In this document: piece by piece, positions 7,652-34,175 of the stretch
Layout: every line of letters begins with the position of its first letter
Numbering within the stretch: position 1 is the stretch's first letter
Origin: Salinisphaera hydrothermalis C41B8
Lineage (GTDB): Bacteria > Pseudomonadota > Gammaproteobacteria > Nevskiales > Salinisphaeraceae
Assembly (NCBI RefSeq): GCF_000732535.1
Contig: NZ_APNK01000038.1
Span: 1-35,231 of the forward strand
DNA: 35,231 bases
Direction of reading: 5' to 3'
Translations under genes and position numbers: made by a program
Notes under the pieces: generated by a model
What the model was told of the DNA's origin: nothing
Seen by the model: only the letters and a program-made list of their open reading frames with translations
Databases searched by the model: none

Positions 7652-10432
7652 GTGCCGCTATCCTGGAACGACATTCGCGCAAACGCCACGAGCTTTGCCC
7701 ACGATTGGGCCGATGCCGCCAACGAACGCGCCGATGCGCAAACCTTCTGGAACGAGTTCTTCGAGGTGTTCGGCATCAAGCGGCGCCAGGTGGCAACCTT
7801 CGAAAAGCATGTCCAGAAATTCGGCGACGCCAGCGCCCACGGGAATGGGTTTATCGACTGCTTTTGGCCCGGCACGCTGATCGCCGAACATAAATCGCGT
7901 GGCAAGGATCTCGACTCGGCGTTCATCCAGGCCGTGGACTACACCGCCTATCTCAAGCCGCGCGACCTGCCGCAGTACATCGTTGTTTCCGACTTCGCGC
8001 GCATCCGACTGCACGACCTCGTTAACGACGAGGAACACGAATTCGCTTTGGCCGAACTGCCGCGCCAGATCAAACGCTTCGGCTTCATCGCCGGCTACAA
8101 GCCGCAGGTGCTGCGCGCGGAAGACCCCGTCAACGTCGATGCCGCTGAGCGCATGGGAAAGCTGCACGACGCGCTCAAGGCCTCCGGCTATACCGGCCAC
8201 AAGCTGGAGATGCTGCTTGTGCGCCTGCTGTTCTGCCTGTTCGCCGAAGACACCGGCATCTTTCAGCCCGCGCAGGCGTTCCGGCTGTGGCTAGAGGAGC
8301 GTACCGCCGAAGACGGTAGTGATCTTGGCTCCAAGATCGCGCATGTGTTCCAGATACTCGACACGCCGCACCAACAGCGCCAGAAGAGCCTCGACGAACA
8401 GCTGGCGGCGTTTCCCTACGTCAACGGCGACCTATTCACGGAAACGCTGCCGATCCCGGCTTTTGATCGCGATATGCGCGACGCGCTACTCGACGCCTGT
8501 GGATTGGATTGGAGCCAGATTAGCCCAGCGGTGTTTGGCGCAATGTTCCAGTCGATTATGGACAGTGAGGCGCGGCGCAATCTAGGCGCACACTACACCA
8601 GCGAACAGAACATCGAAAAGCTCATCAAGCCATTGTTCCTTGACGAATTGCGCGCCGAGTTCGAGCGCGTCAAGCACAATCGCAACCGGCTGTTCGAGTT
8701 TCACAAAAAGCTGCGCACGCTGACCTTTCTCGACCCCGCCTGCGGCTGCGGCAATTTCCTCGTCGTCACTTATCGCGCGCTGCGCGAACTGGAACTGGAC
8801 GTACTGCGCGCCGCGTCCACCGGCTCCGGCCAGCTATCGCTGGACGTACACGGCTTCATTAACATCGACGTGGACCAGTTCTTCGGCATCGAGATCGAGG
8901 AATTCCCGGCGCGCATTGCCGAGGTCGCGCTCTGGCTTACCGACCACCAGATGAACGTCAAGGTCGGCGAGGAATTCGGCATGTACTTCGCGCGTATCCC
9001 GCTACGCGCCACGCCGCATATTCATAACGCCAATGCGCTGCGGCTGGATTGGGAGGACGTGGTTCCGAAGGAGCGGTTGAGTTACATCCTTGGGAATCCA
9101 CCGTTTGGTGGGAAGCGCTATCAATCGAAGTTCCAGAAAGCGGATCTTCAAAGTGTGACCGGGCATATCAAAGGGAGCGGAACGCTCGATTTCGTGACCG
9201 GTTGGTTCGTGAAAGCCAGCGAGCTTTTGGCCCGTGAACCCGATCGAGCAGCAGGTCGTCCACCAATCCGATGTGCATTCGTATCTACGAACTCAATTGC
9301 GCAGGGCGAGCAGGTCAGTCTGCTATGGCCCGAGATGCTACGGCGTGGCGTGAAGATCCAGTTCGCGCACCGTACATTCCGGTGGAGTAACGAAGCACGT
9401 GGCAAAGCTGCGGTGCATTGCATCATCGTTGGCTTTGGCCTGGACGACACGTCTCAGAAGATCCTGTTCGAATACGACGATATAAACGGACTTCCACAAG
9501 GCAAGCCGGTCAAGAACATCAATCCCTACCTTGTAGATGCGCCGGATGTTGTTATTGCCAGCCGCCGCCAGCCGATCTGTAATGTGCCGCACGTCTCTTT
9601 CGGAAGCATGCCGAACGATGGCGGTAATCTCATTCTGAGTGATGTAGAAAAGGCGGAGCTGCTTATCTGCGAACCTAGCGCCGAAAGCTGGGTTCAGCGC
9701 TATCTAGGCAGTGAGGAGTTTCTGCATGACATCAAACGATGGTGTCTCTGGTTAGAAGACTTGCCACCGGCGCGGCTGAAGGAGTTACCGAGGGTCCGGG
9801 AGCGCGTACAGGCGGTTCGAAATAAACGTTTGGAAAGTAGCCGCCTAGCAACTCAAAGGTTGGCCGACGTGCCGACGCTATTCGGGGAAAACCGGCAACC
9901 GGAAGGCCCTTACCTTGCTATCCCGAAGACGTCCTCGGAGCGCAGGCCATACCTGCCGATCGCGTTCCGGGATTCAGAGATAGCAAGTACAGAGCTGTTC
10001 ACTATCCCAGACGCGAAAATTTTTCATTTCGGCATCATTACTTCGATGATGCATGCTGCTTGGATGCGCTATACCTGCGGTCGCCTGAAAAGCGATTTCC
10101 GGTATTCCGCCGGCCTTGTCTACAACAACTTCCCGTGGCCTCAGGATCTCTCGCATAATCAGTGCGAAGCGGTCGAAGCCGCCGCGACGGTCGTGCTCGA
10201 CGCCCGCGCGCAGTTCCCAGACGCCACGCTCGCCGATCTCTACGATCCGCTCACCATGCCGCCCGCGCTGCTCAAGGCGCATCGCAAACTCGATCGCGCC
10301 GTGGACGCGGCTTACGCGCGCAAAAAGTTCTCCGGCGACGCCGACCGGGTCGCGTTTCTGTTCGAGGAATACGCCAAACTCACGCAGCTACCGGAAAAAA
10401 GGCCGGCAGCCAAACAGCGCCGGCGCGGGTAG
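7652..10432 (+). CDS. MmeI-like Type IIL fused restriction endonuclease / DNA methyltransferase
   Basis: The 926-residue product is a single-chain restriction-modification enzyme close in plan and length to MmeI (919 residues). Residues 69-81 carry the endonuclease signature D-x9-E-x-K (Asp69, Glu79, Lys81). A helical connector (about 155-320) leads into a gamma-class adenine methyltransferase, with motif I LDPACGCGNFL (360-370) and motif IV NPPF (482-485). A target-recognition region follows, and the C-terminus holds RLKSDFRYSAGLVYNNFPWP (811-830), typical of the family, plus a helical tail. It should methylate one strand of a short asymmetric site and cut about two helical turns away. GTG start is supported by GAGAGG at 7641-7646. 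Codon use changes between about 9055 and 10130, suggesting an exchanged recognition region. The recognition sequence cannot be read by eye. No separate methyltransferase or specificity subunit is present, as expected. Confidence 0.92.
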   Translation: MPLSWNDIRANATSFAHDWADAANERADAQTFWNEFFEVFGIKRRQVATFEKHVQKFGDASAHGNGFIDCFWPGTLIAEHKSRGKDLDSAFIQAVDYTAYLKPRDLPQYIVVSDFARIRLHDLVNDEEHEFALAELPRQIKRFGFIAGYKPQVLRAEDPVNVDAAERMGKLHDALKASGYTGHKLEMLLVRLLFCLFAEDTGIFQPAQAFRLWLEERTAEDGSDLGSKIAHVFQILDTPHQQRQKSLDEQLAAFPYVNGDLFTETLPIPAFDRDMRDALLDACGLDWSQISPAVFGAMFQSIMDSEARRNLGAHYTSEQNIEKLIKPLFLDELRAEFERVKHNRNRLFEFHKKLRTLTFLDPACGCGNFLVVTYRALRELELDVLRAASTGSGQLSLDVHGFINIDVDQFFGIEIEEFPARIAEVALWLTDHQMNVKVGEEFGMYFARIPLRATPHIHNANALRLDWEDVVPKERLSYILGNPPFGGKRYQSKFQKADLQSVTGHIKGSGTLDFVTGWFVKASELLAREPDRAAGRPPIRCAFVSTNSIAQGEQVSLLWPEMLRRGVKIQFAHRTFRWSNEARGKAAVHCIIVGFGLDDTSQKILFEYDDINGLPQGKPVKNINPYLVDAPDVVIASRRQPICNVPHVSFGSMPNDGGNLILSDVEKAELLICEPSAESWVQRYLGSEEFLHDIKRWCLWLEDLPPARLKELPRVRERVQAVRNKRLESSRLATQRLADVPTLFGENRQPEGPYLAIPKTSSERRPYLPIAFRDSEIASTELFTIPDAKIFHFGIITSMMHAAWMRYTCGRLKSDFRYSAGLVYNNFPWPQDLSHNQCEAVEAAATVVLDARAQFPDATLADLYDPLTMPPALLKAHRKLDRAVDAAYARKKFSGDADRVAFLFEEYAKLTQLPEKRPAAKQRRRG

Positions 10433-31514: not shown

Positions 31515-31529
31515 TGGCACGCCGATTGC
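31515..31529 (+). promoter_or_regulatory. Sigma-54 (RpoN) -24/-12 promoter
   Basis: TGGCACGCCGATTGC (31515-31529) matches the -24/-12 consensus TGGCACG-N4-TTGC exactly, with C instead of A/T at the next position. Transcription would start near 31540, leaving a 5' leader of about 55 nt before the ATG at 31597. Sigma-54 promoters need an enhancer-binding activator; the activator gene is not in the window. The match by eye is strong, but a genome-wide scan would be needed to exclude chance. Confidence 0.75.
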
Positions 31530-31596
31530 CATTTTATAGAGTGCGAGCGCACATAGGGTGGGCTCCGCTTCACCAAATACGATGGGGGTCTCATCG

Positions 31597-32544
31597 ATGA
31601 ACAGGACAACTTTGACAGCAGCCGTGGCGTTGGCGATGAGCTTGACCGCGCCGGCATGGGCTAACCCGACCAATACCAACAGTAAGGGCGGGAACCAGAA
31701 TGCGACGGCCACCGCGACGCAGGACAGTAACGCCGGTCCGACGGCCAATGAAAATTCAACCGCAAGTTGGGTTGATAACCACAATGCGTCGTCCAACCCG
31801 GTTACGACCACGACGACGCGTACCAACAGCTACAGTAATTCGCACAACTCCGACTCGTTCAACCGGTCGGCGGATGCCACAACCAACCTCAACGGGACGG
31901 TGACCGGCAATAGCAGTAGTGCGGGCAACATTGGCGGCACCGCGGACCGAGGCGCTGCCGGCGGTGCGGGCGGTGACGGCGGCACGGCCAATACAACCAC
32001 GACCAGCGGTATGGCCAATGCGGGCCAGGGCGCGATGGGTGGCGATGGCGGCATCGGCCGCGGTAACGGTTCGAGCGGTTCGAGTGCCGGCGCCAGTGGC
32101 GCTTATGGCAGTGCGGCCTCGAGCGGCGGCTCTAGCAGCGGTGGCGGCGGCTCCGCCAGCGGCTCGAATAGCGGCTCCGGCACCGGTGGCGCAGGCGGCG
32201 CGACGGGCGCGACCACAGCGTCTGCCAACGGCGGCGCGGGTGGCAGCAATGCCACCGGTTCGGCGACCGCGACCGGCAACGGTGGCGGCGGTGGCGCCGG
32301 CGGTATGGGTGGCGCTGCGACCAGCGGCTATGCGCTGGCGACTGTGACCACCGGCAATGGCGCCATGGGCGGCGCGGGCGGCAGCTCGTTCGGTGGAGCG
32401 GCGGGGACATTCAATGCCTCCAACACCATCGACGGCGGCAGCCTGGCCAATTCGGCGGGTGTCACGACCGTGAGCCAGAACACGGGCGCAGGGTCGCTGA
32501 TCCAGCAGGGGGTGACGGTGCAGGCCAACCTCAACCTGCAATAG
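31597..32544 (+). CDS. Exported Asn/Thr- and Gly/Ala/Ser-rich protein, putative fibre subunit
   Basis: The 315-residue product has a Sec signal peptide (residues 1-22, ending LTAPAWA). The mature protein has three parts: an Asn/Thr/Ser-rich segment (about 23-110, with TTTTTRTN and NSYSNSHNSDS), a Gly/Ala/Ser low-complexity segment with many GGxGG blocks (about 113-265), and a C-terminal module holding TVSQNTGAGSLIQQGV and ANLNLQ at its very end. ATG 31597 follows GGGGG at 31583-31587. No cysteine is present. I do not recognise the protein family; the Gln/Asn-ladder module shared with the two small proteins of the operon suggests it polymerises extracellularly, like curli or Fap subunits. PE-PGRS proteins are similar only in composition. 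It is first in the sigma-54 operon. Confidence 0.85.
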   Translation: MNRTTLTAAVALAMSLTAPAWANPTNTNSKGGNQNATATATQDSNAGPTANENSTASWVDNHNASSNPVTTTTTRTNSYSNSHNSDSFNRSADATTNLNGTVTGNSSSAGNIGGTADRGAAGGAGGDGGTANTTTTSGMANAGQGAMGGDGGIGRGNGSSGSSAGASGAYGSAASSGGSSSGGGGSASGSNSGSGTGGAGGATGATTASANGGAGGSNATGSATATGNGGGGGAGGMGGAATSGYALATVTTGNGAMGGAGGSSFGGAAGTFNASNTIDGGSLANSAGVTTVSQNTGAGSLIQQGVTVQANLNLQ

Positions 32545-32565
32545 GAAACTTCGGCATCGCCGAGG

Positions 32566-32591
32566 GGCGCGGACGGGTTTCCGTCCGCGCC
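32566..32591 (+). promoter_or_regulatory. Intra-operon hairpin (attenuator or mRNA stabiliser)
   Basis: A perfect 11-bp stem GGCGCGGACGG (32566-32576) pairs with 32581-32591 around the tetraloop GTTT. It lies 22 bp after the stop of the first gene and 40 bp before the second. Only AAACTTT follows, so read-through is likely. Such hairpins between a major subunit and its minor partners raise subunit mRNA levels. Confidence 0.75.
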
Positions 32592-32630
32592 AAACTTTCC
32601 ACGTCGCGGGTTTATAGAGGCGTGATAACC

Positions 32631-32987
32631 ATGAACACAACAAAACGATGTTTGATCGCCGCGGCGGCCGCTCTCGTCGGTGTTTCGTCGATCGCCGGGG
32701 CCGCGCCGGCGCCGTCCGAGCGTTCGTCGACCATTGGCAACGGGCTGGGTGCCCCCGTGTCGGCGCAGACCCTGAGCGCCTATCGAGGGGGGCATGTCTT
32801 TCAGCTCAGTGAGGCGAATCTCTCCGCGCAGCTGTCGGACAACCAGGCCAGCAACAACATAACCGGAAGCAACGTGGTCGGTACGCAGGCGTTTTCGGGC
32901 TCCAGCGGGATTCCCACGGTGATCCAGAATTCCGGCAATAATGTGATCATTCAAAATGCGACCATTCTCAACCTGCAAATGCAGTAA
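32631..32987 (+). CDS. Small exported protein with double-glycine-like segment and QN-ladder C-terminus
   Basis: The 118-residue product has a Sec signal peptide (KRCLIAAAAALVGVSSIAGA, cleaved after about residue 24). Then comes PVSAQTLSAYRGG (42-54), resembling a double-glycine leader. The last 23 residues hold TVIQNSGNNVIIQN followed by ATILNLQMQ, matching the C-termini of the first and fourth operon products. ATG 32631 is chosen over GTG 32622; AGAGG lies at 32615-32619. Its last 32 bp overlap the start of the peptidase gene in another frame. Family unknown; possible nucleator or minor fibre subunit, processed after Gly54. Processing is inference. Confidence 0.8.
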   Translation: MNTTKRCLIAAAAALVGVSSIAGAAPAPSERSSTIGNGLGAPVSAQTLSAYRGGHVFQLSEANLSAQLSDNQASNNITGSNVVGTQAFSGSSGIPTVIQNSGNNVIIQNATILNLQMQ

Positions 32988-33681
32988 AGCCGCGCTGCGG
33001 CGGCTGGCTTTGCTCGCGATGGTGCCGCTGGGGCTGGCCGCACCGGGGGCGATCGCGGGTACGGTCTGGTTGTCTGAAATCGCCACGGGCGTGGGCAATG
33101 TCCCGGTGCGCAGCATGCAGGCGTTGCGGTTCGCACGAACCGTTCATCAGCAGTTCGATTACAGCTGTGGTTCGGCCGCTGTCGCGACATTGTTGAGCTA
33201 TCAGTACGGCGATCCCATCAGCGAACAAGCGGTGTTCAGCGCCATGTGGCAAAACGGCGATCAAACCAAGATCCGCCGCGAAGGATTTTCGCTGCTGGAT
33301 ATGAAGCGCTACCTCGACGCGCACGGTTTTCAGGCCAATGGCTACGATGCGCCGCTGAGCAAACTGGCCGAGGTCGGTGTGCCGGCGATCGTGCTGGTGT
33401 CCGAGCACGGTTATAACCACTTCGTGGTCGTCAAGGGGTTGAGCGGGGGGCGGGCCCTGGTCGGGGATCCGTCAATAGGCGCCCGGACGCTGCCGATCGA
33501 GCGTTTCCGCAAGACGATGCGCAGCCCGATTCTGTTCGTCGTCACCAATCATCGGCAGGAGGCCGTTTTCAACGGCCGCGCCGACTGGTCTAACCAACCC
33601 CTGGCCCCCTTGGGGCAAGCGCTGGATATATCGAATCTGGCGTTGACGCGAGTACTCACCCCGGGGGCCATTCAATTTTAG
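32956..33681 (+). CDS. Exported C39-like cysteine peptidase (FapD-like)
   Basis: The 241-residue product has a basic then hydrophobic N-terminus (KAALRRLALLAMVPLGLAAP), a probable Sec signal. The peptidase core has QQFDYSCGSAAVATLLSYQY with nucleophile Cys71 and oxyanion Gln66, then GFSLLDMKRYLDAHG, the catalytic His155 in HGYNHFVVVKGL, and Asp171 in VGDPSIG. This is the C39 family in its stand-alone periplasmic form, the type to which FapD of the Pseudomonas functional-amyloid operon belongs. C39 enzymes cleave after Gly-Gly. ATG 32956 lies inside the end of the previous gene, so translation is probably coupled; an inner ATG at 33019 would lose the basic n-region. It lies between the two genes whose products carry the GG-type segment. 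Confidence 0.88.
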   Translation: MRPFSTCKCSKAALRRLALLAMVPLGLAAPGAIAGTVWLSEIATGVGNVPVRSMQALRFARTVHQQFDYSCGSAAVATLLSYQYGDPISEQAVFSAMWQNGDQTKIRREGFSLLDMKRYLDAHGFQANGYDAPLSKLAEVGVPAIVLVSEHGYNHFVVVKGLSGGRALVGDPSIGARTLPIERFRKTMRSPILFVVTNHRQEAVFNGRADWSNQPLAPLGQALDISNLALTRVLTPGAIQF

Positions 33682-33692
33682 GAGCGTCGATC

Positions 33693-34175
33693 ATGCGTGC
33701 TGCTTCGGGATGGTTCGTGCTGGTTATCGCGCTGCTGGCCTCGGCGACGGCGACGGCGGCCGATATGGGCGACCGCGCCGGTTTTACCGGGCTGACGCCG
33801 GTCAGTGATGCCCGGCTGGCGGCTTTGCGCGGCGGTTTTACGTTGTCCCAAGGCGGCGTCACGGTTGATGTGGCGATGGGCATTCAGCAGCTGACCTATA
33901 TTAACGGTCAGCTGGTCGCGTCGTCGGTGATCGATACCCAGACGCTGCCGACGCAGCTCCTGCGCGTGATTCAAAACGGCCCCGGCAATACGTTCGATCC
34001 GAACAGCTTGCATCTGCTGCCCGGCAGCATTGGCACGGTGATTCAGAACACGCTGGATCAGCAGACCATTCGCAACCTGAACGTATTGAACGTCACGGTG
34101 ACGAGCCAGGCGCTGGCACAAGCCTTGTCCATTCAGTCGGCCGTTCGCGACGCACTCACCGGCCTGGGCCGTTGA
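33693..34175 (+). CDS. Small exported protein with LRGGF segment and repeated VIQN motif
   Basis: The 160-residue product has a Sec signal (WFVLVIALLASATATA). PVSDARLAALRGGF (36-49) aligns position by position with PVSAQTLSAYRGGH of the second operon protein. After it come GGVTVDVAMGIQQLTYINGQ, then two VIQN motifs: RVIQNGPGNT (91-100) and TVIQNTLDQQ (115-124), followed by TIRNLNVLNVTV. AGGAG at the end of the previous gene (33680-33684) precedes ATG 33693. I recall hypothetical proteins of this kind in other proteobacteria but no established function. It is last in the visible operon; the IS481-type element begins 11-12 bp after its stop and may have cut off downstream partners. Confidence 0.8.
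   Translation: MRAASGWFVLVIALLASATATAADMGDRAGFTGLTPVSDARLAALRGGFTLSQGGVTVDVAMGIQQLTYINGQLVASSVIDTQTLPTQLLRVIQNGPGNTFDPNSLHLLPGSIGTVIQNTLDQQTIRNLNVLNVTVTSQALAQALSIQSAVRDALTGLGR

Follow-up and report, generated by a model that had tools for sequence, protein, structure and literature searches.

A probable Fap-type secretion and fibre operon with a FapD-related C39 peptidase in Salinisphaera hydrothermalis C41B8

Which kind of system is encoded by the four plus-strand genes (g1 to g4) for exported proteins that lie near one end of contig C38 of Salinisphaera hydrothermalis C41B8? The window analyzed here is this entire contig, 35231 bases of a genome of 4.28 Mb in 91 contigs. A preliminary description of the window had recorded a sigma-54 promoter followed by three exported low-complexity proteins and a C39-like peptidase, and had regarded them as a fibre or matrix system related to, yet distinct from, the Fap amyloid system of Pseudomonas. 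As summarized in Table 1, the four genes and the promoter-like site ahead of g1 were all found, the Sec-type signal sequences of the four products being judged by eye. Comparison with related loci suggested that g1–g4 are probably the front of a five-gene Fap-type secretion/fibre operon, which would form a branch beside Fap; the fifth gene (g5), for an outer-membrane pore of the FapF type, lies beyond the window and was recognized in relatives.

Table 1. Coordinates of the features at the g1–g4 locus of the window
Feature	Position	Strand	Basis or remark
Sigma-54 (-24/-12) promoter-like site, TGGCAC-N5-TTGC	31515-31529	+	Sole perfect site on both strands of the window; enriched 5' of g1 in relatives
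g1, exported Asn/Thr- then Gly/Ala/Ser-rich protein, 315 aa, single conserved C-terminal Q/N repeat	31597-32544	+	
11-bp perfect hairpin in the g1-g2 gap	32566-32591	+	Stem search
g2, small exported protein, 118 aa, leader-like LSAYRGG (residues 48-54), single C-terminal Q/N repeat	32631-32987	+	
g3, exported C39 cysteine peptidase, FapD-related	32956-33681	+	Q65, C71, H155 and D171 invariant in 48/48 aligned rows
g4, exported protein, 160 aa, LAALRGGF (residues 42-49), VIQNTLDQQTI near the C-terminus; FapE counterpart	33693-34175	+	
IS481-type transposase; element extends to the contig end	34188-35138	-	PF13011, E 1.6e-20

The coherence of the operon was assessed in 60 loci, namely 58 from a scan of named genomes, L007 and the window (L006, L008 and L009 were dropped as the same records as L055, L078 and L082), with profiles built from 5 of the 60 loci (4 for g5). 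The search for the 58 named loci relied on a C-terminal pattern of g4, with confirmation by g4; selection therefore affects this gene and not the co-occurrence of the others. On this basis, g2 was present in 57 loci, g3 in 59, g4 in 60 and the pore gene g5 in 56, and g1 with its C-terminal motif was identified in 55 of the 57 loci having g2 (L071 and L073, where g1 was not identified, are left out of the g1 counts below). The missing copies of g2 or g3 were confined to L031, L077 and L080, in which g4 starts no more than 531 bases from the contig start. The four genes grouped in the preliminary description are thus conserved together.

That description had recognized no FapF homologue, which does not hold for the relatives: the outer-membrane pore it had suggested seeking in their neighbourhoods turned out to be g5 itself, which matched the FapF crystal structures with E 3.6e-46 to 1.6e-44. 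Three g5 proteins aligned to positions 120-420, 19-420 and 17-418 of the 420 positions of the FapF model (E 2.4e-41 to 4.9e-46), with 142-157 bits against a cut-off of 700. Of the 56 g5 genes, 31 lay downstream on the same strand within 400 bp, 2 lay farther downstream, 16 were convergent on the downstream side and 7 divergent on the upstream side; the loci without it were L060 (150 bases past g4), L033 (2.3 kb), L061 (2.9 kb) and the window. The conserved synteny and the pore carried beside the operon in relatives support the idea of a secretion/fibre system. An extra small coiled-coil protein was noted between g4 and the pore in L009 (7172-7585, minus strand).

The designation of g3 as a C39-like peptidase was confirmed by its match to PF03412 (E 3e-19), and the residues listed in Table 1, which we take to be the catalytic Cys, His and Asp and the Gln before the Cys, are all present. 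It matched the FapD model (E 4.2e-37, 127.6 bits) and the FilB model of the Fil putative pilus (E 5.8e-35, 121 bits), in the former case below a cut-off of 330. The likeness to Fil thus consists of a C39 peptidase and a related pore (three g5 proteins scored 42.6-58.1 bits with the FilC model), whereas g3 and g5 fell far under the respective cut-offs of 475 and 630, and no other Fil model matched.

Several lines of evidence placed g3 apart from FapD. Peptidase matches at E ≤ 1e-20 were obtained in 45 of 369 genomes of the class, of which 15, S. hydrothermalis included, scored at least 267 bits, and all remaining matches at most 180. In a peptidase tree of 48 chosen rows built by a quick search, the 32 rows of the g3 branch and the 15 Fap rows were separate with SH-aLRT supports of 91 and 93, which are moderate values below 95; the single FilB-type row (L120) stood outside both groups on a long branch, and the window row paired with that of an Alcaligenaceae bacterium (support 89). 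Furthermore, Pseudoxanthomonas daejeonensis (G096, the same as record L055) possesses an operon of the g1–g5 type plus a Fap operon elsewhere, which shows the two systems to be separate. Genome G254 also has a pair of C39 peptidases and a pair of FapF-type pores (contigs C1 and C35), and thus perhaps two systems.

The same comparisons bear on a simpler account, in which the locus would be a divergent fap operon lacking FapA (g1 = FapC, g2 = FapB, g3 = FapD, g4 = FapE, g5 = FapF) and no separate branch would exist. The gene order indeed mirrors that of Fap, g4 has the N-terminal module of FapE (87% over 38 columns in a profile comparison), and g2 gave single-profile matches to FapB of 5.5e-4, 6.5e-4 and 0.015, which were kept as weak (29% in the profile comparison). 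Of 16 Fap genera, 6 lack FapA (PMC3792158), and nine FapDs from Fap loci also miss the FapD cut-off, with 203-284 of 330 bits. In addition, a stem of at least 8 bp within 110 nt past g1 was found in 36 of 55 loci, as opposed to 25 of 1100 shuffled sequences that preserve composition only, and such stems followed g2 in 10/57, g3 in 0/59 and g4 in 9/60; in the Fap loci, they were seen after FapC (6/10) and not after FapB (0/11). The shared position of this hairpin suggests that the cell needs an excess of g1, as of FapC. An assignment of g1 as FapC was nevertheless rejected, the two being equated by place and hairpin alone and the profile comparison giving 0.1%. This value, the gap in peptidase scores, the split in the tree, the low scores of g3 and g5 with the Fap models and the occurrence of both systems in one genome all argue against a plain fap operon, which we consider decidedly unlikely.

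The preferred assignment, a branch beside Fap, thus combines similarities and differences. Like Fap, it has a C39 peptidase with a signal sequence, a FapF-type pore with a coiled coil, a FapE-type protein, Q/N repeats and a hairpin 3' of the large-subunit gene. Unlike Fap, its peptidase belongs to a separate group, its g1 is mostly of low complexity with a C-terminal repeat in place of the Fap repeats, RGG is found in g4 and many g2 in contrast to RG[RK] in FapE, and no match named FapA was obtained among the four window proteins with NCBIfam, a library for which the presence of a FapA model was not established.

Double-glycine leaders bind C39 peptidases via the helix preceding the two glycines. 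A leader-like motif, [LM]xxxRGG[FYM], was present in 59 of 59 complete g4 rows (the truncated g4 of L077 was excluded), and 8 columns, the start Met included, were invariant across the 52 rows of the g4 alignment. In the 57 g2 proteins, Lxxx was followed by RGG in 33, SGG in 14, RGR in 5 and a different variant in each of the other 5. At the place of FapE, i.e., in the gene after FapD, RG[RK][YF] (e.g., LSDEELxxLRGRY) was found in 15 of 15 Fap loci; the FapE model recognized FapE in 3 genomes and the 15 were chosen by place and motif, so that this count is not blind. The loose LSDEDY-type stretch of a few FapA proteins was not counted. Structure models were built from 52 of the 60 g4 rows and 45 of the 57 g2 rows. 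The g4 model (mean pLDDT 71.5) had a helix at residues 39-45 directly before the motif at 46-48, and the g2 model had one at 45-51 directly before the motif at 52-54, with pLDDT 80 in residues 41-50 and a mean of 55.5, at which the model as a whole is unreliable. A search of the PDB for folds similar to the g4 model yielded no match (best E 0.34). As for the beta-rich module on which the preliminary description had staked its fibre idea, strands are contained in the g4 model, and the g2 fold could not be relied on, making this a weak test.

Based on the conserved motif, the short predicted helix before it and the intact catalytic residues, we infer that LxxxRGG predicts the cutting site of g3, whose substrates would be g2 and g4. 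By the same comparison, FapE may be cut in Fap at the place matching the g4 motif. Published work on Fap reports that secretion requires Cys38 of FapD and that no peptides were obtained from the first ~70 residues of FapE; it describes the FapD substrate as unknown, suggests FapE for this role with FapF as another candidate, and states that canonical C39 sites are missing from the Fap proteins (PMC5557850, PMC6173800). In three Fap loci (L154, 2864-3199; L156, 5749-6168; L160, 4530-4868), we also noticed a small exported protein with a leader-like stretch, e.g., IADEELSSMRGT, and a shared VILWDE stretch, which is a possible further FapD substrate.

The leader-like motif could alternatively be read as a sign of peptide maturation, with g2 and g4 as precursors whose C-terminal parts, freed at GG by the C39 peptidase, would serve as signals or bacteriocins. 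LxxxRGG does look like a double-glycine leader, GG being the usual cleavage site of C39 enzymes (PMC5557850). Such a pathway is, however, very improbable considering the signal sequences on both peptidase and substrates, the FapF-type pore, the large G/A/N-rich partner and the Q/N repeats; moreover, the five conserved genes include no ABC transporter, their flanks not having been searched for one. In the peptidase-containing ABC transporters (AMS/PCAT, ComA), which share the C39 domain and whose substrates carry leaders with a terminal GG (PMC5557850), the arrangement is different from that of g3, a separate protein with a signal sequence.

With regard to the proposed fibre, both g1 and g2 end in a relaxed repeat, G-x5-[QN]-x2-G-x5/6-[NQ], which was found within the last 60 aa of 54 of 55 g1 proteins (mean of 4.8 after shuffling) and 55 of 57 g2 proteins (1.8), the shuffles again preserving composition only. 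The same spacing was found in 11 of 11 whole FapB proteins. The low-complexity part of the window g1 contained one more, chance-like relaxed match. A Fap-like repeat is thus present in g1 and g2, usually once at the C-terminus and in the relaxed form. The published strict repeat, GX4NX3GX6N (PMC3792158), was found in 11 of 11 FapB and 7 of 7 FapC; because g1 and g2 failed this test, the system was not filed as a strict Fap member. The likeness to Fap is still closer than the preliminary description had claimed, in view of the FapF-type pore of the relatives, the FapE module of g4 and the FapB spacing of the g1 and g2 repeats. Its statement that the non-enzyme products are of low complexity was correct for g1 and not for g2 and g4, and the Gln/Asn motif it had assigned to all three was shared, in profile comparisons, by g1 and g2 (96%) and by g2 and g4 (97%, partly via the leader motif) and not by g1 and g4 (4.7%). 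Neither g1 nor g2 had a Pfam match at E ≤ 1 or any NCBIfam match, and no NCBIfam model matched g4 at E ≤ 1; its sole Pfam match, DUF6647 (E 0.11), was rejected.

The single C-terminal repeat and the long low-complexity stretches of the window g1 would also suit a non-fibre system, in which the same secretion steps deliver a soluble or matrix-bound G/A/N-rich g1 and no amyloid is formed. The FapB spacing of the C-terminal repeat speaks against it, as does the g1 of L007 (7593-8504), a less Gly-rich protein with four relaxed Q/N repeats (GISQVQQNNGSNSTMQQ type) about 70 residues apart, and we regard this possibility as rather unlikely. The L007 protein is closer to a classical amyloid subunit and gave a weak FapB match (E 0.081). 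All three alternatives overlap with parts of the preferred assignment, and their likelihoods need not sum to one.

The sigma-54 site of the preliminary description, TGGCACGCCGATTGC in the window, has counterparts that are enriched ahead of g1 across the loci. When the best site per locus was sought between 450 bp ahead of the g1 frame and 60 bp inside it in 51 loci, the window included (L035, L071, L072, L073 and L082, with partial or unidentified g1, and L051, with a short upstream region, were left out), it was perfect in 14 and had at most one mismatch in 27; in control windows taken from these loci (n = 1929), the corresponding shares were 0.1% and 1.9%. In 24 of the 51 loci, the best site had two or more mismatches or no site was present. 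Of the 60 loci, 28 had a gene for a sigma-54-type activator in the fetched stretch, and the window had none; perfect sites occurred in 2 of 11 fetched Fap stretches, site position not being weighed.

The window's own copy of the operon differs from those of the relatives in what follows g4. The transposase gene starts 12 bp past g4 on the opposite strand, and the contig, which ends after the element, is thereby occupied at the place where relatives often have the pore gene. The element has 17 matches across the genome, of which 4, including the window's own, are of full or near full length, and its repetition is probably why the contig breaks off there. A pore profile with four rows found g5 in 6 of 6 operon-bearing genomes (E <1e-160), its rows coming from four of these and not from G254 (6.5e-161) and G359 (2.5e-184), and it also picked up the Fap pore of G096 (4.7e-52); weak partial matches in the relatives G010, G014 and G015 (E 5e-5 to 8e-3) were not taken as pores. 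Five contig ends carrying the right end of the element are possible continuations of the window, and the 3.3-3.5 kb beside the element in these yielded a single weak pore match (L150, E 0.067), which was rejected. The pore may either have been lost around the insertion or lie within a gap of the assembly. With no pore found and the element directly after g4, the window copy may be cryptic or broken.

Several observations weigh against a Fap-type fibre operon in this organism. No pore was detected in its genome with the four-row profile at E ≤ 0.01 or E ≤ 1, nor with the pore of one relative as query, and L033 and L061 likewise have none within the 2.3 and 2.9 kb 3' of g4. GG is absent from 10 of the 57 g2 proteins, for which the structure model is in addition unreliable. 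The relaxed repeat, whose register was picked after the sequences had been seen, was found in 0 of 7 FapC, and the strict repeat is missing from window g1, g2 and g4; it occurred in only 9 of the 55 g1 proteins, always outside the last 60 aa, and in 5 of the 57 g2 proteins. FapF has also been named as a possible target of FapD (PMC5557850, PMC5135000). Of the system originally envisaged, the relationship to Fap and the distinctness from it are supported by the synteny, the FapF-type pore of the relatives and the separate peptidase group, whereas fibres would follow by analogy and the organism's own genome yielded no pore. An MmeI-type combined restriction-modification enzyme of 926 aa (PF20473, E 1.5e-89) is encoded elsewhere in the window, at 7652-10432 on the plus strand.

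A search with g4 matched 5 of 194 related genomes, the organism's own included, and none of 13 other genomes of the genus; the peptidase profile had no match in 16 other genomes of the family. In view of this patchy occurrence, the operon was probably acquired. The 58 loci of the named-genome scan came from Dyella, Rhodanobacter, Pseudoxanthomonas, Lysobacter, Variovorax, Rhodoferax, Thauera, Azoarcus, Aromatoleum, Dechloromonas, Thiobacillus, Nitrosomonas and Nitrospira, among others. The two Nitrospira records (L042 and L056), from another phylum, were nested among proteobacterial rows in the tree, which makes horizontal transfer likely for these copies.

If the parts act as their homologues suggest, sigma-54 and an activator would switch the operon on, the promoter being visible as a sequence, and the g1–g5 products would cross the inner membrane via Sec. 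Periplasmic g3 would then cut g2 and g4 after LxxxRGG, and g5, a FapF-like barrel with a coiled coil, would export the trimmed g2 and g4 together with the large g1. Outside the cell, g1, the proposed major subunit, would form a matrix or fibre via its C-terminal Q/N repeat, with g2 as a putative nucleator and g4 as a FapE-like initiator. Fibre formation, cleavage and secretion by the g1–g5 system are predictions. Curli has Q/N repeats of a similar kind (PMC5557850, PMC5135000), while g1, g2 and g4 gave no Pfam curlin match and the pore of the relatives is FapF-like. With a likelihood slightly short of even, C39/FapF-type fibre export may comprise, besides Fap and Fil, a third lineage to which the operon belongs; here, two different Sec-exported proteins would bear a second, periplasmic double-glycine leader (LxxxRGG), whose removal by the C39 peptidase would license export, and the degenerate RG[RK] before Tyr/Phe in FapE would be the FapD site. 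If this is true, the leader-cleavage rule would hold for the whole C39/FapF superfamily.

In the available parts of the Fap and C39 literature consulted (PMC5557850, PMC6173800, PMC3684753, PMC6173795, PMC10853474, PMC12392863, PMC3792158 and PMC5135000), a scope that leaves aside subscription papers, preprints and supplements, no description of the g1–g5 branch was found; it may overlap with the fapD-fapF pairs shown in PMC6173800 (Fig. S1) and with the Rhodanobacter systems of PMC3792158. The branch would probably escape surveys that demand Fap repeats (PMC12392863) or homologues of four Fap proteins (PMC6173800). This relative of Pseudomonas Fap export is widespread and apparently undescribed. 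With it, Fap-type export reaches many environmental members of the Beta- and Gammaproteobacteria as well as Nitrospira, and the invariant, canonical-looking site in the FapE counterpart, together with the similar one in a second protein, makes the question of the FapD site directly testable.

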